Assembly (NCBI GenBank): GCA_017628205.1
Contig: JAGBZO010000045.1
Coordinates: forward strand, 151,883-215,882
Origin: Duodenibacillus sp.
GTDB taxonomy: Bacteria > Pseudomonadota > Gammaproteobacteria > Burkholderiales > Burkholderiaceae_F
DNA: 64,000 nt
Reading direction: 5' to 3'
Position 1 is the stretch's first letter. Each line of letters starts with the position of its first letter. The notes below the pieces were generated by a model, which worked only from the letters and a program-made list of their open reading frames with translations, did not search any database and was not told the origin of the DNA. The translations under genes were made by a program, and so were the position numbers. Below are positions 13,952-63,686 of the stretch, piece by piece.

Positions 13952-14316
13952 TGGTGGAGGTGGCGGGAATTGAACCCGCGTCCGAAATGATTTTTTCGTC
14001 GGATCTACATGTTTAGTTCAAGTATTTTGAGTTCTTATTGACGATCCTGCTCTTGAACAAGCCTATCGGCAACCAGTCGCTTGATTTCGGAAAGGCCGTC
14101 ACGACTCCGACCCTTCCTAGACTCTGTAAATGACGATGCCGTCGGTATTACCCGACCTGAACCAGAGACAATTCAGTGCATCGCTCGCGGCCCTTAGGCG
14201 GCGAGAGCGTAACGCTCGTTGTTGGCGTTTATTTGTGTCTAGCTGTTTTACGAGGTGACTAGACCTCGACATGCACCGTACGACGTCCTACACCCCGTCG
14301 AAACCGGAACACCCCC
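13952..14316 (-). ncRNA. ssrA: Transfer-messenger RNA (tmRNA)
   Basis: This 365-nt one-piece tmRNA rescues stalled ribosomes with SmpB. The 5' end GGGGGUG pairs with CACCUCC before the encoded 3' ACCA, making the alanine-type acceptor stem with a G3-U pair. The T-arm GTTCAATTC is visible near the 3' end. The tag frame runs from 14226 down to the TAA at 14194-14196 and reads ANNERYALAA. It ends in the LAA signal recognised by ClpXP and FtsH. The gene is transcribed toward alaS-tusA and ends at a strong terminator. Confidence 0.97.
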
Positions 14317-54583: not shown

Positions 54584-55369
54584 TCAGTGCTGGCCAAGCC
54601 AGCCCAAACTGGCTGAAACCGCCGCCGTTGTCGACAACAAATGGCGAACCCATTCGGGCTTTTGGGACATGTCGGACGAACTGACGATCGTGATGGCCGC
54701 GATGATGCCCCCATGATGGTCGCGGATCGGAGCGCCGATGCAACGAATGCCGTGTTCCAGTTCTTCTTTGTCGTCGGCCCATCCCAATTCTCGAATACGA
54801 TCGAGTTCGGGAATCAATCGTTCGGCAGATGCGATCGAGTATTCGGTCCGGGGCGTCAAACGCGACCGAGCAATGTAGGCGGAAACGTCTTCGGGCGAGA
54901 ATTCGCTCAAAAACAACTTGCCGCCGCTCGTACAATGCAACGGAGCCATGGAGCCGATTTGCCGAGTCAAACGAAGGCCGTTTTGCGAAGCAAGAACGTG
55001 TTCGACATACATGACGTGATCGTCGTGACGCATGGACAAATTGATCGTTTGCCCCGTTTTTTCGAATAGCACGTGCATGAGCGGCAAAGCCTTTTCCCGT
55101 ACGTCCAGACGATCGCGCACCAAGCTGCCGTAGTGAAGGAAACGCAACCCCAGACTCCAACGTCCGTTCTCGTCGCGTTGAAGATAGTCTTGCTCCGCCA
55201 AATTCCACAACAAACGATGAACCGTCGAGGGGTGTAGTTGTGCCGTCACTGCAATGTCGTGCAACGAAATCGGTTGCCGTCGGGCAGCAATGATGGACAA
55301 GATCGAAAGAGCGCGATCGAGAACCTGAATCGGCTTTTGCTTTTCGCGCTCGGTGCCGTTTTTCGTCAT
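54584..55369 (-). CDS. IclR-family transcriptional regulator
   Basis: This 261-residue regulator has an N-terminal winged helix-turn-helix (about residues 15-75, PISLHDIAVTAQLHPSTVHRLL). The IclR effector-binding domain (about 85-255) contains PLHCTSGGKLFLSE and GIRCIGAPIRDHHGG. The ATG at 55369 is set by AGGA nine bases upstream and overlaps the stop of the Fe-S oxidoreductase gene (ATGA). It is therefore co-translated with that gene and may control it. The ligand is unknown; many IclR proteins sense aromatic or small organic acids. Confidence 0.92.
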   Translation of the reverse strand: MTKNGTEREKQKPIQVLDRALSILSIIAARRQPISLHDIAVTAQLHPSTVHRLLWNLAEQDYLQRDENGRWSLGLRFLHYGSLVRDRLDVREKALPLMHVLFEKTGQTINLSMRHDDHVMYVEHVLASQNGLRLTRQIGSMAPLHCTSGGKLFLSEFSPEDVSAYIARSRLTPRTEYSIASAERLIPELDRIRELGWADDKEELEHGIRCIGAPIRDHHGGIIAAITIVSSSDMSQKPEWVRHLLSTTAAVSASLGWLGQH

Positions 55370-57372
55370 GCTTGCGTATCCTGTTTGGTCGCTTGCAATC
55401 GTGCAGAAACGATTTCCGCAATGTCTTCGATACGCGTCGTATCGGCGTCGTTGTTTTGCTGCGCCTGAGCGCTGGACAACATCGTCAGACAGTGCGGGCA
55501 GGCGACGGCGATGCATTCGCTCTTGGTTTGTTTCAGTTCCTTCAGTCGAATGACGTTTATACGACCGGGGCGATCCATAAAGATTTGTGCGCCGCCGGCA
55601 CCGCAACAGGTCGCATTGGCTCCGGTATTGGACGCTTCAATCAAACGAGCGCCCGATTTGTTGAGAATGGCACGGGGTGTTTGCTCAATACCGTTGTAAC
55701 GCGCCAAATAGCAAGGATCATGGAACACGATCGAGCCGATTTGTTCCTGAGTCAAGGGCAGGCGGTTTTCACGCAACAAGCGATCGATGAAATCGGCGTG
55801 ACTGGTCACCTCATACGCCCCGCCCTCAAATTGCGGATATTCGTTTTTGAGAGTGCTGAAGCAGTGCGGGCAGGCGGCGACGATTTCACCGAAACTGTAT
55901 TGCGCCAAATTTTCAATGTTTTCCATGGCGGCGGTTTGGAAGAGGTATTCTTCCCCGGCTCGTCTGGCGAAATCGGCGTGGCAGCGTTCCTCTTGCATGA
56001 CGGCAAACGAGACACCGGCCGATTTGAAAATGTTCACCATCGCCTTGGCGATCTTTTGTGCTCGGCGATCGTAAGAGGCGGAACAGCCAACCCAATACAG
56101 AACGTCGACGTGTTGACCGGGTTTGGCCACGGGAACGTCAAGTCCCTTCGCCCAAGCCAAGCGGCTGCCCGGATCCATACCCCAAGGATTACCGACGCTG
56201 GCGGTGTTTTCCAATGCGCCGGCCAAGCCTTCGGGGAAGTCGCCTTGCTCCAGTGCCAAATGACGACGCATGGAGACGATCAATTCGTGGATCGGAATCT
56301 GAGCGGGGCAGACGTTGGTGCAGGCGCCACAGGTGGTGCAACTCCAAAGCGCATCCTTTTCGACAATACCGTCAATCAGCTCTTGCTCGCTCGACGGGGT
56401 GTGCATGCGATGCTTCAAAGACAAGATCAAGTTCTTGGGATCCAACGGGGTTTTGGCTTTGACGGCCGGGCAGACGCCGCGGCAACGGCCGCACTCGGTG
56501 CAACCGTCGAAACGAATGCGGTCGCGCCAAGAGAATTGTTTGAAGTCCGAAATGCCGAACGATTCCTGCTCTTCAATATCTTCAATTTTGGCAATGGCTC
56601 CCATGGGTGTTTCTTTCTTCCAGAAAATGGAGGAGGGAGTCTTGAAAATATGGGCGTAATAGGTCAGGGGAATGGCCGCGACAAACGTCAAGGCGGCTAG
56701 GCCGTGGATGACCCAGACATAAATGTGCAGCGTCCGCAGTGTGTCTTCGGACAAGCCGACAAAGGCAAGGGAGATCACGTGACCGACGGGAGAGTAAATG
56801 CTCCATGCCGGCTGTTGCGTGGCCAAACGCAGCGCTTCGACAAGAAAACCGGTCAGGATGATGGCGACCAGACTGCCTAAAACATACGCAAATCGCTGCG
56901 ATTGTTCGACTTTGGGGTCTTGACGGACAAAGCGACGCCACAGGGAGAAGCACAGAGCGATCAAAGCGGCAAGCCCTGCAGTGTCCAAAATCAATTTGTA
57001 CATCAAGTAGAAATTGCCGGTCAAAAATTGCTTGCCGAACACATAGTGGCCGATATCCCAGTCGAGCGTGGCGGTTGCCGTGCCCCAGAACAACAGCAAA
57101 AAGCCCCAGAAAATGGCGAAGTGAGCCTTGCCGCTGGCGCCTTGCATGACGCGCGGTTGAAGGAAAATTTCTTTGAGCATTTGCTTGGTACGCCATTGGG
57201 TCAAGGGGGCGACCTTTTCATCGGCGGCGCCAAGACGGCGGGATTTGATGGAGCGAACAATGCCGGCAATACAAATGATCAAGGCGGCGAGGCCGACAAT
57301 ATAAACGCCGATTTCAGCCCACAGAGGCACATTCCAAAACCCGGGGCGAACCGGAATAGCAGTCGATTGCAT
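55366..57372 (-). CDS. Membrane-bound Fe-S oxidoreductase (heterodisulfide reductase/NarI-like fusion)
   Basis: This 668-residue inner-membrane protein has a NarI/HdrE-like heme b-type membrane part (helices at about 20-40, 85-105, 125-145, 160-180 and 220-240). Two [4Fe-4S] motifs follow (CTECGRCRGVCP from 291, CTTCGACTNVCP from 345). Two CCG domains come next, the second with NATCCGAGGAQ and ACPHCLTML. Such fusions pass electrons between a soluble donor, often an electron-transfer flavoprotein or a dehydrogenase, and the quinone pool. No etfAB or dehydrogenase genes are adjacent, so the donor is unknown. The start at 57372 lies in a region of repeated GTCGATTGCA elements. Confidence 0.88.
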   Translation of the reverse strand: MQSTAIPVRPGFWNVPLWAEIGVYIVGLAALIICIAGIVRSIKSRRLGAADEKVAPLTQWRTKQMLKEIFLQPRVMQGASGKAHFAIFWGFLLLFWGTATATLDWDIGHYVFGKQFLTGNFYLMYKLILDTAGLAALIALCFSLWRRFVRQDPKVEQSQRFAYVLGSLVAIILTGFLVEALRLATQQPAWSIYSPVGHVISLAFVGLSEDTLRTLHIYVWVIHGLAALTFVAAIPLTYYAHIFKTPSSIFWKKETPMGAIAKIEDIEEQESFGISDFKQFSWRDRIRFDGCTECGRCRGVCPAVKAKTPLDPKNLILSLKHRMHTPSSEQELIDGIVEKDALWSCTTCGACTNVCPAQIPIHELIVSMRRHLALEQGDFPEGLAGALENTASVGNPWGMDPGSRLAWAKGLDVPVAKPGQHVDVLYWVGCSASYDRRAQKIAKAMVNIFKSAGVSFAVMQEERCHADFARRAGEEYLFQTAAMENIENLAQYSFGEIVAACPHCFSTLKNEYPQFEGGAYEVTSHADFIDRLLRENRLPLTQEQIGSIVFHDPCYLARYNGIEQTPRAILNKSGARLIEASNTGANATCCGAGGAQIFMDRPGRINVIRLKELKQTKSECIAVACPHCLTMLSSAQAQQNNDADTTRIEDIAEIVSARLQATKQDTQA

Positions 57373-57789: not shown

Positions 57790-59145
57790 TCAGAACATAT
57801 AACGCGCACCGAAATTCCATTGATACGGGCTCTTTAACTTGGAGTCCGTCGTGGTTTGGAATTCGCCGTACACGGCGAAGTTCTTCGCAACGTTATACGT
57901 GCCACCAATAGCAAATTCACCCCAGGTACTGCCCAAATCTTCTTCCATGGCCTCAAGACCGTTGCTCATCGTGATGCGAGCTTTGCCCATGGCTTGGTGA
58001 GCGACGCTGGCCTTGACGTAATCCGAGCCGTGTTCGAACTTGGCACTGAAGGCAAGGCCCAAGCGACCGACGAGGCTTTCGAGCTTGTCTTGCTTGGCGG
58101 CGACGCCGTCGTCGGTCGTGTAAGACACATCGTCCATCACGCTGTAGCTTACTTCGGCTTGCGGTTCAATCCAGAACTTGTCCGTTAAGCTGAAGCGCCA
58201 ACCGTATTCGGCACAAATGCTACAACCGTTGGTATCGTAAGAGCCCTTGCTCATGGCGCCGGTGGTGTAAGCCATTGCGAAGTCATTGTCAAAATGATTG
58301 TGCTTGACGATTACGTCGACAAATTGTCCGTTTTCAGCCATCCAGCCGCCGTAAGCACCGAGGCTGTAGGACTTGTCTTCGTTCTTACCGTTGTTGAGCT
58401 TGCCTTCGCCTTCGGAGTAGCTGGCGGCCAAACCAAAATAGAAGTTATCCGCAATGCGCGTATCGGCACCGATTTGGATTGTATTGTGGTCATACTTCAA
58501 TCCGCGATCGCCGTACTTCATTTGGCCGCCGTAGGTGCGAGCCCAAGCACCGTGCTGGTTCGGGTAAGAGCGCAAATCGCCCAAACGCTTGTTGACATCG
58601 TTAATCTGTGCAATCCAAGAAAGTATTTGGAGGCTTGCGACATCGTTGGGGCTTTCGGACACGGAGGTGTTGCTCTCTTGATTGTCGGAGACGATTTGCT
58701 TGTCACCGCCGGCGCCAACAACAATTTGACGTTGCGTACTGTTGGAACCCTCGTTTTGAACAATCGTAAAGCCCGGGTTTTGTTCGGGATTTTCAAAACA
58801 CAGGCCCTTGGCCACATCGGCACCCGACATATTGGCAGGAATCGTATCGTAGACCACATTAAGCGCAGGGCCGCTTTGCGAGTTGTTGCGCAGCATCATG
58901 CGGGCCGGTGCAGCTTGAGTGAGATTGCCGATGGTGAATTGCTCAGCCTTCGGCGTCGTTGCCGTAAACGTTAAATCCTTATTAAAGGCTAAGTTATTGA
59001 TCTTAAGATTGTGCGCGCCTGCATGGATGGTGGCGGCAGCGGCTGCAATATCACGAGTCGTTGAAGACATCGGCGTTTCAATCGTCAAATCGGATACCGT
59101 CGAGTTGCCCGTCATATTCCATGCAGAACCTTCTTCCATGGTCAA
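57790..59145 (-). CDS. Autotransporter beta-barrel domain, N-terminally truncated
   Basis: The last ~270 residues form an autotransporter (type Va) outer-membrane barrel. HGAWARTYGGQMKYGDRGLKY starts the barrel, and the end WNFGARYMF has the aromatic C-terminal residue recognised by the BAM complex. About 170 residues of beta-helix-like passenger precede it (ESLQGVFLTMEEGSAWNMTGN). There is no signal peptide, and the frame is closed upstream by TAG at 59184-59182. The protein as written cannot be exported. The listed start (TTG 59145; ATG 59139 is next) is only the first possible codon. A second passenger fragment lies just upstream in another frame. Confidence 0.75.
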   Translation of the reverse strand: MTMEEGSAWNMTGNSTVSDLTIETPMSSTTRDIAAAAATIHAGAHNLKINNLAFNKDLTFTATTPKAEQFTIGNLTQAAPARMMLRNNSQSGPALNVVYDTIPANMSGADVAKGLCFENPEQNPGFTIVQNEGSNSTQRQIVVGAGGDKQIVSDNQESNTSVSESPNDVASLQILSWIAQINDVNKRLGDLRSYPNQHGAWARTYGGQMKYGDRGLKYDHNTIQIGADTRIADNFYFGLAASYSEGEGKLNNGKNEDKSYSLGAYGGWMAENGQFVDVIVKHNHFDNDFAMAYTTGAMSKGSYDTNGCSICAEYGWRFSLTDKFWIEPQAEVSYSVMDDVSYTTDDGVAAKQDKLESLVGRLGLAFSAKFEHGSDYVKASVAHQAMGKARITMSNGLEAMEEDLGSTWGEFAIGGTYNVAKNFAVYGEFQTTTDSKLKSPYQWNFGARYMF

Positions 59146-59448: not shown

Positions 59449-60477
59449 TTACATGGCCGGGTTGGGGATTTCGTTATGAATTTCTTCGATTCGGGCCAAG
59501 ACTTCTTCGGACAACACGACGTTGCATGCGCTGACGTCGGCTTTGAGCTGTTCCAATGAGGTGGCCCCCAAAATCGTCGACGATACAAACCAACGGGAAG
59601 AAACGAACCCGAGAGCCAATTCGATCGGCGTTAAGCCGGCGCTCGTTGCCAAATCCAAGTATTTTTGGGTGGCGCGACCGACGCTGGGACGGGTGTAGCG
59701 AGGCGAGTAGTCCGAAGGGAATTGGGTGAATCGGCCGATGGCTCCGGGCTTGAGATATTTGCCCGACAGCGTGCCGCCAGCTAACGGGGAGTAAGCCAAC
59801 AAAGCGACGTCTTCGTTCCAACACGTTTCGTCAAGCCCTTGTTCGAATTGACGGTTGGTCAACGAGTATGCGTTCTGAATGGAGACGATGCGCGGCAGGT
59901 CGTATTCGTCTGCCAAACGACAGAACTCGCAGACCCCCCAGGACGTTTCGTTGGAAACGCCGAGAGCTCGAATTTTGCCTTCGTCAATCAGTTCCTTGAA
60001 TACTTCAAGTTGTTCGCGAATGCCGACTTCTGCGATGCGTTCCTCTTCCGTCGGAGGAACGTAACGCGTGTTTCCGAAGATCGGCGCTTTGCGACAAGGC
60101 CAATGAATCTGATAAAGGTCGATGTAATCGGTTTGCAAACGAGCGAGCGATTCGTCGATGGCGCGACGAATGCCGTCAAGCGAGTATTTCCCGTCTCGGA
60201 TCCAACGGCGCCCGGGACCGGAAACTTTGGAGGCAACGATGACTTCGTCGCGTTTTTGATGCTTCAACCACTCGCCGATGTAGCGTTCCGTCAGGCCCTG
60301 CGTCTCGGGGCGGGTGTAAACGGGATACATCTCGGCGCAGTCGATGAATCGAATGTCGTTGTCGAAGGCCCACTGCAATTGTTCGTGTGCCTCGTCCATC
60401 GTGTTTTGTTCGCCGAAAGTCATGGTCCCGAGAATAATCTTCGGGAAGGCGAACGGGGAAGTAGTCTTGCGAGTCAT
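59449..60477 (-). CDS. tas: Aldo/keto reductase, Tas family
   Basis: This NADP(H)-dependent oxidoreductase has 342 residues. It matches the E. coli Tas pattern closely: LGTMTFGEQNTMDEAHEQL at the N-terminus, DCAEMYPV with the catalytic Tyr, ETQGLTERYIGEWL, and DLYQIHWP with the catalytic His. GVSNETSWGV and YSPLAGGTLSGKYL follow. The natural substrate of Tas is not settled. The ATG at 60477 follows AAGGA and lies 11 bp after the pyrD-like stop, so it is the last gene of the nudix-aat-bpt-pyrD unit. Confidence 0.92.
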   Translation of the reverse strand: MTRKTTSPFAFPKIILGTMTFGEQNTMDEAHEQLQWAFDNDIRFIDCAEMYPVYTRPETQGLTERYIGEWLKHQKRDEVIVASKVSGPGRRWIRDGKYSLDGIRRAIDESLARLQTDYIDLYQIHWPCRKAPIFGNTRYVPPTEEERIAEVGIREQLEVFKELIDEGKIRALGVSNETSWGVCEFCRLADEYDLPRIVSIQNAYSLTNRQFEQGLDETCWNEDVALLAYSPLAGGTLSGKYLKPGAIGRFTQFPSDYSPRYTRPSVGRATQKYLDLATSAGLTPIELALGFVSSRWFVSSTILGATSLEQLKADVSACNVVLSEEVLARIEEIHNEIPNPAM

Positions 60478-60488
60478 AGCGCAGTTCC

Positions 60489-61538
60489 TTAGATTTGGGC
60501 GTGTTCTCGTCGCCAACCGGCGGCGGCTTCAACGCATTCAGCGACCAGAGAGGGGCCCTGATACACCAACCCTGAGTATAGTTGAACCAGGCTTGCTCCT
60601 GCTTGGAGCTTCTCGACGACATCGTTCGGTGTCATAACACCGCCCGAAGCAATGACGGGCAACTGAGAACCCAAATGCTCCGTCAAGCGCGCGACGCAAT
60701 GCGTTGTTCTCTCGGACAGCGGACGGCCGGACAACAATCCCGCGTCATTGCTTAATCCTTCGATGACGGAGCAATCGTTGGAGGCGGACGTGCCGACGAT
60801 ACCGTCCATGTTCAGGGAAAGCACTGTGTCGGCTAATCGCAACAATTGATCATCGGATAAATCGGGAGAGATTTTTACGGCGATGGGTTTGTAGGGCTGG
60901 TCATGTTCGGAAATAAGGCGAGAACGCTCGTCACGAAGAGCGGATAAGAGTCCCGTCAGGATTGCTTCGGAGTGCAGAAGATGCGTTGTACGTGCTTCAG
61001 TCGAAGTCAGATTGATGCAGAAGTAGTCCGCCTTGGCGTAAGTCTGCTTGAAAGTAAACAGATAGTCGTTGACGCAATTTTCTACGGCGGTGACCGAGTT
61101 TTTTTCGATGTTAATACCGAGAATGCCGCCTCTAAGATGGAAACAGTCGGCACTGCGCAAGTTGCGCAACGTCTGCTCGACGCCGCAACTGCTCGAGGGC
61201 GTTGCATCGACCAGTGCCTGTCGCGGCTTGATGCGAACGCAGTCGTTGGCCGTTCGAATGCCTTGGGCGGTAGGACAGACGGGGCCGACTTCGATATGAC
61301 CGAAACCGAGGGCGCCAAATGCGCTGACACAGTCAGCATTGACATCCATACCGGCTGCCAAGCCAACGGCATTGGGAAATCGAATGCCCATGACGACGGT
61401 CGGATCTTCTTGCGGCATGTGACAACAGTCCTTGTGCCAGCCCATTGTTGTCATCCAATCGAGATTGGATATCATGAGTTGGTGAGAGGTGGCCGGCGGC
61501 AAAAGAGGAAGAATGCGCGAGCAAAGTTTAAATAACAT
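60489..61538 (-). CDS. pyrD: PyrD (class 2 dihydroorotate dehydrogenase) homologue with altered substrate site
   Basis: This 349-residue protein is in the expected place after aat-bpt and keeps the fold and FMN features of quinone-dependent dihydroorotate dehydrogenase: GLAAGMD (59-65), GILGINI, IAVKISPDLS with Lys222, LLSGRPL, GASLVQLYSG. The residues that hold orotate in E. coli PyrD are replaced. Lys66 is Val66, the NRMGFNN loop with Asn111 is absent, SSPNTPGLR is changed to TSTEARTTHL (losing Asn177), and the ATN of Asn246 is GTS. The serine base appears kept as Ser179. Either it is inactive, has another substrate, or belongs to a strongly divergent lineage. The start at ATG 61538 gives a normal N-terminus; ATG 61577 overlaps bpt. 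Confidence 0.85.
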   Translation of the reverse strand: MLFKLCSRILPLLPPATSHQLMISNLDWMTTMGWHKDCCHMPQEDPTVVMGIRFPNAVGLAAGMDVNADCVSAFGALGFGHIEVGPVCPTAQGIRTANDCVRIKPRQALVDATPSSSCGVEQTLRNLRSADCFHLRGGILGINIEKNSVTAVENCVNDYLFTFKQTYAKADYFCINLTSTEARTTHLLHSEAILTGLLSALRDERSRLISEHDQPYKPIAVKISPDLSDDQLLRLADTVLSLNMDGIVGTSASNDCSVIEGLSNDAGLLSGRPLSERTTHCVARLTEHLGSQLPVIASGGVMTPNDVVEKLQAGASLVQLYSGLVYQGPSLVAECVEAAAGWRREHAQI

Positions 61539-61551
61539 GTCGTATCCGTCG

Positions 61552-62280
61552 TTAAGTAGTCTCTTGTAAGAACGCATCGAAGTCTAGCCAACGGGAGTTG
61601 TGAAAGACTTCCGTCGGCTGAAAGTTTCGTTTGTAGTCCATGCGAGGATAATTTTGAAGCCAGTATCCCAAATATAAGTAGGGATAGCCGAGACGTTTGG
61701 CTAATTCTAACTCGTACAAAATGCAGAACGTGCCAAGGCTTGACGTACGGGCTTGCGGGTCATAAAAGGTGTAAACCGCGCTCAGGCCATCGGCTGTATC
61801 GTCGACGACGGCAACCGCAGCCGGGGCTTGTGTGTCCGGGTAAGAAAACTCCAAAAGAAACGTTCTTGCCGAAGTTCCCAGAAGATGTTTGGTGTAGTCC
61901 TGCTCGGTCATGGTGCTCATGTATCCGCCGTGCCGCATACGCTCGTAACGGATGAACAGGTCGTAATGCTCCTGAACGAAGACGGGAGGTAGCGAGCGGA
62001 CAAGAAGATGCGAGTTGCGTTTCAACGTTTTGCGTTGGGTGGCGTTCGGAATGAATTCGTTCGTTCGTACGCGGGTGGATTTGCAGGCTTGGCAGTCGGC
62101 GCATACAGGGCAATATTGAGCCGTTCCGTCTCGACGATACCCGTTCTGAATCAGAATATCGTATGACTCGGGTGTGGATTGGGCGGGATCGCACAGGCGA
62201 ATTTGAGACTTCTTTTCCGGGAAATAAGAGCAAGAGGTCTCGAATTCAAAACAAGTAAAACGGTAGCTCGGAGTACTCAT
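61552..62280 (-). CDS. bpt: Aspartate/glutamate leucyltransferase (Bpt)
   Basis: Bpt (an ATE1-related enzyme) adds leucine to N-terminal Asp or Glu, making N-degrons for ClpS-ClpAP. The 242-residue protein has the N-terminal cysteine cluster CPVCADCQAC near residues 56-65 and the segment RYERMRHGGYMS. The GYWLQNYPRMDYKRNFQP segment is typical of the family. It overlaps the aat stop by four bases. Together with aat it covers both bacterial N-end-rule transferases. Confidence 0.94.
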   Translation of the reverse strand: MSTPSYRFTCFEFETSCSYFPEKKSQIRLCDPAQSTPESYDILIQNGYRRDGTAQYCPVCADCQACKSTRVRTNEFIPNATQRKTLKRNSHLLVRSLPPVFVQEHYDLFIRYERMRHGGYMSTMTEQDYTKHLLGTSARTFLLEFSYPDTQAPAAVAVVDDTADGLSAVYTFYDPQARTSSLGTFCILYELELAKRLGYPYLYLGYWLQNYPRMDYKRNFQPTEVFHNSRWLDFDAFLQETT

Positions 62281-63041
62281 ACGCTGAGACGGTCGTTAAG
62301 AGGGCGATCTCGCAGGCAGGACCAAGACATGGCAAGCGGCTCGTCGTACAGTTGTCGGCTCAGATGAGTGAAGGTCGCGCGAGACATGGTTCCTGCACCT
62401 AGACTTTGCAGGTGGTCGGTGTGGGCTTGGCAGTCGATGAGATCGACGCCTAAATCGGAGGATAGGTGGCACAAAAGGGCCAGAGCGATTTTAGAGACGT
62501 CCGGGCACAGATGGAACATGGACTCGCCGACGAAGACTTTGCCAAAGCACGTACCCCAAAGGCCGCCAACTAATTGTCCGTTTACGTGAACCGATATCGA
62601 GTGGACGTAACCGAGATCGGCCAACAGACCGTAGGTGTCGATGTATTCCGATGTGATCCAGGTTTCGGGTTGGTTTTTGCGTACTGTTTCGGCGCATGCT
62701 CGAATAACGTCTTTCGTCTCTTTGTCAACAAACAACAGGCAATCGTGTTTGCTGTACCTGAAACGAGCCGCCTGTCGAAGTCGTTTGGCAAATGTTCGGC
62801 TGCAATGCAAATGCGTCGGAATCAGGACGGTACGATCCAGGGGGCTGAACCAATAAAAGAGATCGCTGTGTTTGAACCACGGAAAAATGCCGTACCGATA
62901 GCCTCCTGCGACAAGTTCGGGGGAAAGCGATTGCGTTACGGCAACACACTCGTCGCACTCCTCAAGTCGGGAGGCGACGTAGGCAAATTCTTCAGGATTG
63001 CGAACGAAGAAAACTGGCGGTTCGGAAGTAGGGTTGGTCAT
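62277..63041 (-). CDS. aat: Leucyl/phenylalanyl-tRNA--protein transferase
   Basis: Aat adds Leu or Phe to N-terminal Lys or Arg. The 254-residue protein has the typical GGYRYGIFPWF near residue 47 and WWSP-like YWFSPLDRTVL. GLWGTCFGKVFVGESMFH and LIDCQAHTDHLQSLGAG complete the pattern. It overlaps both its neighbours by four bases (nudix upstream, bpt downstream), so the genes are translationally coupled. No clpS or clpA is in the window. Confidence 0.95.
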   Translation of the reverse strand: MTNPTSEPPVFFVRNPEEFAYVASRLEECDECVAVTQSLSPELVAGGYRYGIFPWFKHSDLFYWFSPLDRTVLIPTHLHCSRTFAKRLRQAARFRYSKHDCLLFVDKETKDVIRACAETVRKNQPETWITSEYIDTYGLLADLGYVHSISVHVNGQLVGGLWGTCFGKVFVGESMFHLCPDVSKIALALLCHLSSDLGVDLIDCQAHTDHLQSLGAGTMSRATFTHLSRQLYDEPLAMSWSCLRDRPLNDRLSV

Positions 63042-63580
63042 ATCGAGAATCGATGCACCGTAAAGGAGCCTTTTTTACGATCTTCGAAAAAAGCCTGTAA
63101 CGTTAAGCGCACGGTCTGAAAACTGAGCTGCTCCCATGGAATTTCGTCTTCGGCGAACAAACGAACCTCAAGACTTTCCGATGTAGGGGAGAATTCGGGC
63201 GAGTCCAAACGAGCGCGGTAAAAGAAGCTGATGTTGTTCGAGCTGCAGGAATCGAATACAGTAAATAGGTCAATGATCGAGACTTTGGCGTTGGTCTCTT
63301 CGATGGTTTCCCGCACGGCGCCGTTTGCAAGCGTTTCGTTGATTTCCATGAAGCCGCCGGGGAGCGTCCAGCAACCGTAGCGCGGTTCAATGGCGCGTCG
63401 TGCTAACAGGACCTTGTCTTCGTAGGTGGCGACGGTTCCAACGACCGGGATGGGATTGAAGTATCGAATGTAGCCACATTTGGGGCAAACGTCTCGCAGT
63501 GCGTTTTCTCCCGGAGGAATCGCTCGTTGCATAGGAGTGCCGCACTTTTCACAGTAATAGGCGCGCGTAGTAAGCAACAT
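63038..63580 (-). CDS. Nudix hydrolase with N-terminal zinc ribbon
   Basis: This 180-residue protein has a zinc ribbon with Cys10, Cys13, Cys32 and Cys35, followed by YFNPIPVVGTV and a Nudix box at about residues 76-98 (GGFMEINE...AVRETIEETNA). Asn97 replaces the usual Gly near the end of the box. The form is that of the NudC-like/ADP-ribose pyrophosphatase-like proteins common in bacteria; the substrate is unknown. Two ATG codons lie close together. ATG 63580 is chosen because GGAGG is nine bases before it but only three before ATG 63586. It is the first gene of the aat-bpt-pyrD-tas unit. Confidence 0.85.
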   Translation of the reverse strand: MLLTTRAYYCEKCGTPMQRAIPPGENALRDVCPKCGYIRYFNPIPVVGTVATYEDKVLLARRAIEPRYGCWTLPGGFMEINETLANGAVRETIEETNAKVSIIDLFTVFDSCSSNNISFFYRARLDSPEFSPTSESLEVRLFAEDEIPWEQLSFQTVRLTLQAFFEDRKKGSFTVHRFSI

Positions 63581-63657
63581 GATCATGAACCTCCGTTTGA
63601 CGTGTAGAGTAAATAATAGGGTAGACGGGGGTGTTTTGGTGAATTGATTTAAAAGTC

Positions 63658-63686
63658 TTGACATTTAAAAAAATGCCACATATAAT
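63658..63686 (+). promoter_or_regulatory. Consensus sigma-70 promoter of tRNA-fMet
   Basis: TTGACA (63658-63663), a 17-bp spacer and TATAAT (63681-63686) match the consensus perfectly. Transcription should start near 63693, about 34 bases before the tRNA. Confidence 0.93.

Follow-up and report, generated by a model that had tools for sequence, protein, structure and literature searches.

The pyrD gene of the Duodenibacillus genome studied here encodes a class 2 PyrD homologue from which the four residues of the orotate clamp have been lost, and this altered gene occupies the pyrD locus native to the genus. Every genome read that has lost the clamp also carries a second class 2 PyrD, whose own clamp is intact and which has Cys at the catalytic-base position (called type B in this analysis). 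Purifying selection on the altered genes was calculated from their codons. On this basis, it is probable that type B took over dihydroorotate oxidation and that the native PyrD survives with another role. The window, which is the whole stretch of DNA analysed, is 64,000 nucleotides long; its genome is designated G000, and the other Duodenibacillus genomes compared are G001-G009.

The open frame runs from 61577 to 60489 on the minus strand (362 aa). Alignment with E. coli PyrD places the start at the ATG at 61538, 13 bases past the bpt stop codon, which gives a protein of 349 aa; the coordinates of the initial annotation, 60489..61538, are therefore right. The protein matches Pfam PF01180 (DHO_dh; 141.8 bits) and TIGR01036 (247.2 bits versus a cut-off of 200), scores below the cut-offs of the other NCBIfam PyrD equivalogs, and is 36% identical to E. 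coli K-12 PyrD (120/338 aligned positions). It is a whole-length class 2 PyrD homologue. The gene and the codons discussed below are as follows (fully altered copies are those that have lost all four clamp residues).

60489..61538, minus strand: pyrD orthologue at the native locus, orotate clamp lost, 349 aa (PF01180, TIGR01036, alignments)
61341..61343, minus strand: codon of V66, at the E. coli Lys66 position (alignment)
61188..61208, minus strand: residues 111-117, DATPSSS, the NRMGFNN loop of E. coli (alignment)
61011..61013, minus strand: codon of N176, at the Asn172 position, kept in 7/7 fully altered copies (alignment)
61002..61004, minus strand: codon of S179, at the position of the catalytic base Ser175; 7/7 fully altered copies have Ser or Cys here (alignment)
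60996..60998, minus strand: codon of E181, at the Asn177 position (alignment)
60873..60875, minus strand: codon of K222, at the Lys217 position, kept in 7/7 fully altered copies (residue counts)
60786..60788, minus strand: codon of S251, at the Asn246 position (alignment)

Lys66, Asn111, Asn177 and Asn246 are taken here to be orotate contacts, from the E. coli and human structures. A list of orotate contacts was sought in the available part of PMC7762340 and none was found there. The initial annotation had claimed that these four residues are changed or missing, and the alignment bears this out: in E. coli numbering, K66 is replaced by V, N111 by D, N177 by E and N246 by S. The surrounding motifs are affected as well, since MGFNN reads TPSSS, SSPNTPGLR reads TSTEARTTH (P176 to T, N177 to E) and ATNTT reads GTSAS (N246 to S, T247 to A). 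The four clamp residues are invariant in all E. coli, canonical and type B sequences compared, where the site is covered; judged from the alignment, their loss in the window protein is not ordinary variation.

Other parts of the active site are retained. The FMN-framework motifs AAGMD, GINI, VKISPDLS, LSGRPL and LYSG are all present, as had been reported, and so are several cradle glycines and three residues that the initial annotation did not mention, N172, S175 (the base position) and K217; yet P176 and N177, which adjoin S175, are changed. His19 and Arg102, which presumably form the quinone site by correspondence to human His56 and Arg136, are both retained.

The neighbours of the gene in the window are the following.

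61552..62280, minus strand: bpt-like gene, upstream (gene name from the initial annotation)
62277..63041, minus strand: aat-like gene (gene name from the initial annotation)
63038..63664, minus strand: putative Nudix-type gene; it adjoins native pyrD in several other Sutterellaceae (neighbour comparison)
59449..60516, minus strand: aldo/keto reductase gene, downstream, likewise downstream of canonical pyrD in G001 and G002 (neighbour comparison)
55366..57372, minus strand: membrane Fe-S protein with CCG domains, downstream of pyrD in 10/10 Duodenibacillus genomes (Pfam CCG/Fer4 in homologues)
54584..55606, minus strand: regulator of the IclR family, the third conserved gene of the locus (Pfam IclR in homologues)

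The order pyrD-CCG-IclR was found in all ten Duodenibacillus genomes, altered and canonical alike, with the aldo/keto reductase gene lying between pyrD and the CCG gene in the window, G001 and G002. The product of 55366..57372 has TfrB- and LdhH-like matches below cut-off, and that of 54584..55606 NCBIfam IclR-type matches, also below cut-off. In the genomes G062 and G063, which belong to another genus, the altered copy adjoins the nudix gene, like the canonical copies of that genus. The conserved pyrD locus proposed in the initial annotation is thus real, and neighbour comparison identifies the altered gene as the native one there. The idea that a new paralogue landed in the pyrD locus is rejected because canonical and altered genomes have identical neighbours. 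Similarly, a role of the Fe-S neighbour as a partner specific to the altered copy is unsupported, because the same neighbour follows canonical pyrD.

The CCG Fe-S protein and the IclR regulator (54584-57372) are also linked to pyrD in several Sutterella genomes. An autotransporter beta-barrel frame, with TTG as its listed start, lies at 57790-59145, between the aldo/keto reductase and Fe-S genes. Elsewhere in the window, a tmRNA gene (tag peptide ANNERYALAA) occupies 13952-14316 on the minus strand.

One option raised in the initial annotation was a second pyrD elsewhere in the genome. It was found: a full-length class 2 PyrD of 345 aa, 44% identical to the E. coli enzyme, is encoded at G000:C21:107859-108890 (= L005:7854-8891). 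In this protein K66, MGFNN, N177 and N246 are intact, with D at position 172 and C at 175; Cys at the base position and N172D are identical across all type B copies in which the sites are covered. Duodenibacillus belongs to the Sutterellaceae, and type B was found in four genera of this family. In a search for full-length PF01180 matches that took in 25 genomes, type B was the only such match in all five Mesosutterella genomes (G010, G027, G077-G079), and it occupies the native pyrD locus in the three of them read for neighbours (G010, G027 and G078). L056, L075 and L076 are Mesosutterella loci with type B. Because it is the sole full-length PyrD there and lies at the native locus, type B may be the native PyrD of Mesosutterella, and this genus may be close to the donor of the other type B copies.

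Type B copies of the other genera fall together in one clade next to that of Mesosutterella (99/99). Transfer would account for this, with Mesosutterella on the donor side; an old duplication followed by many losses would also fit, because these copies are a single clade next to that genus. When type B was compared with plasmids, 81 records matched, none of them at 60% identity or above. In G062 and G063 (L058 and L059), type B and the altered native pyrD lie on the same contig, about 8.5 kb apart in both genomes. According to the available text of PMC8520639, class II enzymes use serine as the base and class I enzymes cysteine, and Cys-type class II dihydroorotate dehydrogenases are active in fungi that make pyrimidines without oxygen. 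By this likeness, type B would be suited to the anoxic gut.

Clamp sites could be read in 60 of 67 family genomes; no match was obtained in G024, G035, G061 and G065, and the partial matches of G028, G072 and G074 were left unread. All four clamp residues are lost from the native copy in seven of the 60, five of Duodenibacillus (G000, G003, G005, G006 and G008) and two (G062 and G063) of a genus to which a Candidatus Aphodousia record (G063) belongs. The native copy of G004 is partly changed (K66R, F115N). Type B accompanies all eight altered copies, seven full and one partial, the type B of G004 being a 60-aa fragment at a contig edge. Type B occurs together with a canonical native copy in five genomes (G067, G084, G086, G088 and G089) and on its own in another five, and 42 carry only the canonical type, as a single copy except in G075, which has two. 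The native copies of G001 and G064 are partial, and that of G064 stops short of position 246. Among public relatives, 74 of the best 80 of 404 keep all four clamp residues; the six without the full clamp come from the same taxa as the altered copies.

A chimeric or error-ridden assembly could have faked the alteration, and the window genome is a MAG (1.83 Mb, 50 contigs, 85.66% complete). Such an artefact is hardly credible: the frame is open, the native neighbour order is found on both sides of it, and similar losses occur in seven genomes of two genera, with two genomes listed as 99-100% complete.

The number of losses was estimated from a tree of the linked proteins, with 23 rows for CCG and 14 for IclR. 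In this tree the other five altered Duodenibacillus genomes group with canonical G009 (100/99) and the window genome falls outside. A single clade of the six altered Duodenibacillus genomes was rejected by the linked genes (AU p 4e-13), and with it one single loss in Duodenibacillus, assuming that those genes were untransferred. The Duodenibacillus type B copies do not form one clade either (AU p 3e-5 in the tree of type B only and 0.035 in the full tree), and the neighbours of type B differ between G000 and G003. From these three lines, the linked-gene tree, the type B trees and the differing neighbours, we infer that the clamp was lost at least twice in Duodenibacillus and that type B was probably gained at least twice; a third loss is likely in the Candidatus Aphodousia group. 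The PyrD protein tree alone is compatible with one loss or with several: the eight altered copies of both genera lie on one side of a branch (97/91), with long branches, in the free tree, and trees that place the altered copies of either genus with their own canonical copies are about 8 log units higher and were not rejected (p 0.67-0.68).

The frames of all eight altered copies are open. Those of G003 and G005 share K66R, N111H, F115L, N246G and T247P, changes that are therefore most simply older than the split of the two. With a pairwise codon model written for this analysis, this pair gave a dN of 0.236, a dS of 2.35 and a dN/dS of 0.10 (2dlnL 190 against 1), compared with a dN/dS of 0.007 and a dN of 0.005 for type B of the same two genomes; Nei-Gojobori values were in accord (0.14 for the altered pair, 0.012 for type B). 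An omega of 1 was rejected in all seven altered pairs tested (2dlnL 89-190); dS was saturated in six of them, several values lying at the search bound, and these six were used solely to reject 1, so only G003-G005, itself with a dS of 2.35, gives a usable dN/dS. In a neutral simulation at distance 0.8, 8.6 stops accumulated per lineage, and none of 2000 runs was stop-free. No broken frame and no absence of selection on the protein was found, and a plain neutral pseudogene is rejected by the dN/dS and by the simulation. The altered copies look kept, not decaying, because the dN/dS of 0.10 comes from a pair that apparently split after the loss. Constraint on them is nevertheless much relaxed, since their dN is 0.236 versus 0.005 for type B in this same pair.

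What the altered copies have kept was assessed at 83 positions that are invariant in the canonical, type B and E. coli sequences compared; the seven-copy counts and identities leave out G004, whose clamp is only partly changed. None of the seven fully altered copies keeps K66, N111, N116, N177, N246 or T248, nor G94, N95, P98, R99, G108 or G265, and all seven keep A62, G63, K217, G268, G296 and G297. R102 is kept in six of the seven and H19 in five, and the FMN-site residues T86 and T245 in two and one, respectively. By the lists of contacts used here, orotate positions are kept in 14/56 cells (0.25) and FMN-only positions in 61/91 (0.67), compared with 282/476 (0.59) for the other invariant positions. 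By these counts, the loss is sharply focused on the substrate side, and FMN positions fare just a little better than the remaining ones.

Mean pairwise identity gave a similar picture, with column sets of our own choosing for the substrate face and the FMN cradle. From canonical to altered copies it falls from 0.87 to 0.18 in substrate-face columns, from 0.87 to 0.69 in FMN-cradle columns, from 0.70 to 0.33 in the N-terminal segment, and from 0.72 to 0.41 over all columns. In these alignments the substrate face ranks among the best-conserved parts of true PyrD, yet of the parts examined it is the least conserved in the altered copies. R66, H111, G246 and P247 are common to G003, G005 and G008, other lineages differ, and new pocket residues shared by all altered lineages were sought in the seven fully altered copies and none was found. 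FMN binding by the altered copies is weakly suggested by these data.

These observations bear on the possibility that the native copy is a relic in slow decay after its displacement, its frame being open through short time or because the costs of misfolding slow its loss. The branches are long and the dN of the altered pair is about 40-50 times that of type B in the same genomes, the pocket differs by lineage with no new residues common to all, and G004 (K66R, F115N) resembles an early stage; all this would be expected of a relic. Slow decay is nonetheless unlikely: eight of eight copies are open where neutral drift over such distances should have produced many stops, a dN/dS of 0.10 is seen after the loss shared by G003-G005, and FMN-cradle columns still have an identity of 0.69.

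It may also be asked whether the window protein is still a dihydroorotate dehydrogenase that works through other residues, type B doing something else. This is very unlikely, even if N172, Ser or Cys at the base position and K217 are kept in all seven fully altered copies, and the TIGR01036 score of the window protein exceeds the cut-off. K66, N111, N177 and N246 are gone from all seven, with replacements that differ between lineages. Type B, in contrast, has all four, and five of five Mesosutterella genomes have no other full-length PF01180 protein. Activity is known for Cys-type class II enzymes of fungi (PMC8520639, available text).

Takeover by type B is thus the reading that we retain. 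In it, type B would have been gained from a Mesosutterella relative and would have taken over the oxidation of dihydroorotate; native PyrD, then freed from dihydroorotate binding, would have stayed on in a different role as a folded protein associated with the membrane and possibly holding FMN, having retained its fold, part of the FMN cradle and two presumed quinone-site residues. For this role, two proposals can be made. The initial annotation suggested a changed substrate, that is, a repurposed flavoenzyme; this is allowed in so far as the gene is under selection without its dihydroorotate residues, but the lineages share no replacement pocket. That native PyrD turned repeatedly and independently into an FMN- and quinone-linked enzyme for a substrate other than dihydroorotate, at its old locus near a membrane Fe-S protein, is accordingly rather doubtful. 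We tentatively favour, at somewhat less than even chances, a role without a fixed small substrate, as a pseudoenzyme, a partner protein, a component of electron transfer or a flavin carrier close to the quinone pool; since the pocket differs between lineages, such a role is somewhat likelier than a single new enzyme. Against the takeover reading as a whole count the fast change, the drop in N-terminal identity, the PyrD tree, the single usable dN/dS pair and the weak retention of the FMN site.

The rest of the pyrimidine pathway also weighs against takeover, as PyrB and PyrC were unrecognised in Duodenibacillus. Carbamoyltransferase searches (one over 15 genomes, another over 24) recognised no PyrB in ten Duodenibacillus genomes: eight have a single carbamoyltransferase match and two have none. 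The match is ornithine carbamoyltransferase in G000 and G007; the other six were left unclassified individually. The loss of PyrB does not follow the altered state, since canonical G007 has the ornithine enzyme only; in altered G063, the best models for the carbamoyltransferase match are aspartate carbamoyltransferase, below their cut-offs. Among 24 genomes searched, none of the ten of Duodenibacillus has a full-length match to either PyrC model. In G008 an amidohydrolase is encoded next to type B; as a possible substitute for PyrC it was rejected, because at E <=1e-20 none of its matches is to a dihydroorotase model, and the two other amidohydrolase models that it does match score below cut-off. 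PyrF is present in all 24 genomes and a uracil phosphoribosyltransferase match in 23 of them. Uptake of pyrimidines, another option of the initial annotation, is possible, as nine of the ten Duodenibacillus genomes, G000 included, have this latter match. The gene annotated as pyrE in the window does match orotate phosphoribosyltransferase, just under the TIGR00336 cut-off (105.9 versus 106.8). Imported dihydroorotate or orotate may be the starting point of the pathway.

Canonical native copy with type B, altered native copy with type B, and type B alone coexist within one bacterial family, which makes it a replicated natural experiment on the fate of a central-pathway enzyme once another copy takes over. 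It is also a trap for annotation: the window protein, those of G003 and G005 (fully altered) and that of G004 (partly altered) exceed the TIGR01036 cut-off, so a pipeline relying solely on this cut-off would annotate them as dihydroorotate dehydrogenase. Should the protein indeed serve a new function, gut bacteria would be using the PyrD fold in a way not yet described. In titles and abstract openings of the open-access literature, with subscription papers mostly outside, no description of comparable PyrD copies was found.

Compared with class 2, quinone-dependent PyrD (TIGR01036; E. coli PDB 1f76), the window protein is alike over its whole length (36% identity), in several FMN-cradle glycines, and in K217, N172 and Ser at the base position; it differs by the loss of K66, N111, the MGFNN loop, N177 and N246, and its genome differs in holding another PyrD with the clamp residues. 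Type B shares Cys at the base with the Cys-type class II dihydroorotate dehydrogenases described for anaerobic fungi in the part of PMC8520639 available and occurs in gut bacteria; it differs in having N172D, in being bacterial and in being known here from sequence, and the window gene itself is not Cys-type. Inactive paralogues that partner an active one, such as that of trypanosomatid deoxyhypusine synthase (PMC3663545, available part), likewise present an inactive-looking copy kept beside an active one; here, however, it is the native gene that looks inactive, while the copy that looks active seems to have been acquired. The present case would be that of a displaced enzyme kept without its substrate site, and its strength lies in its replication across lineages.
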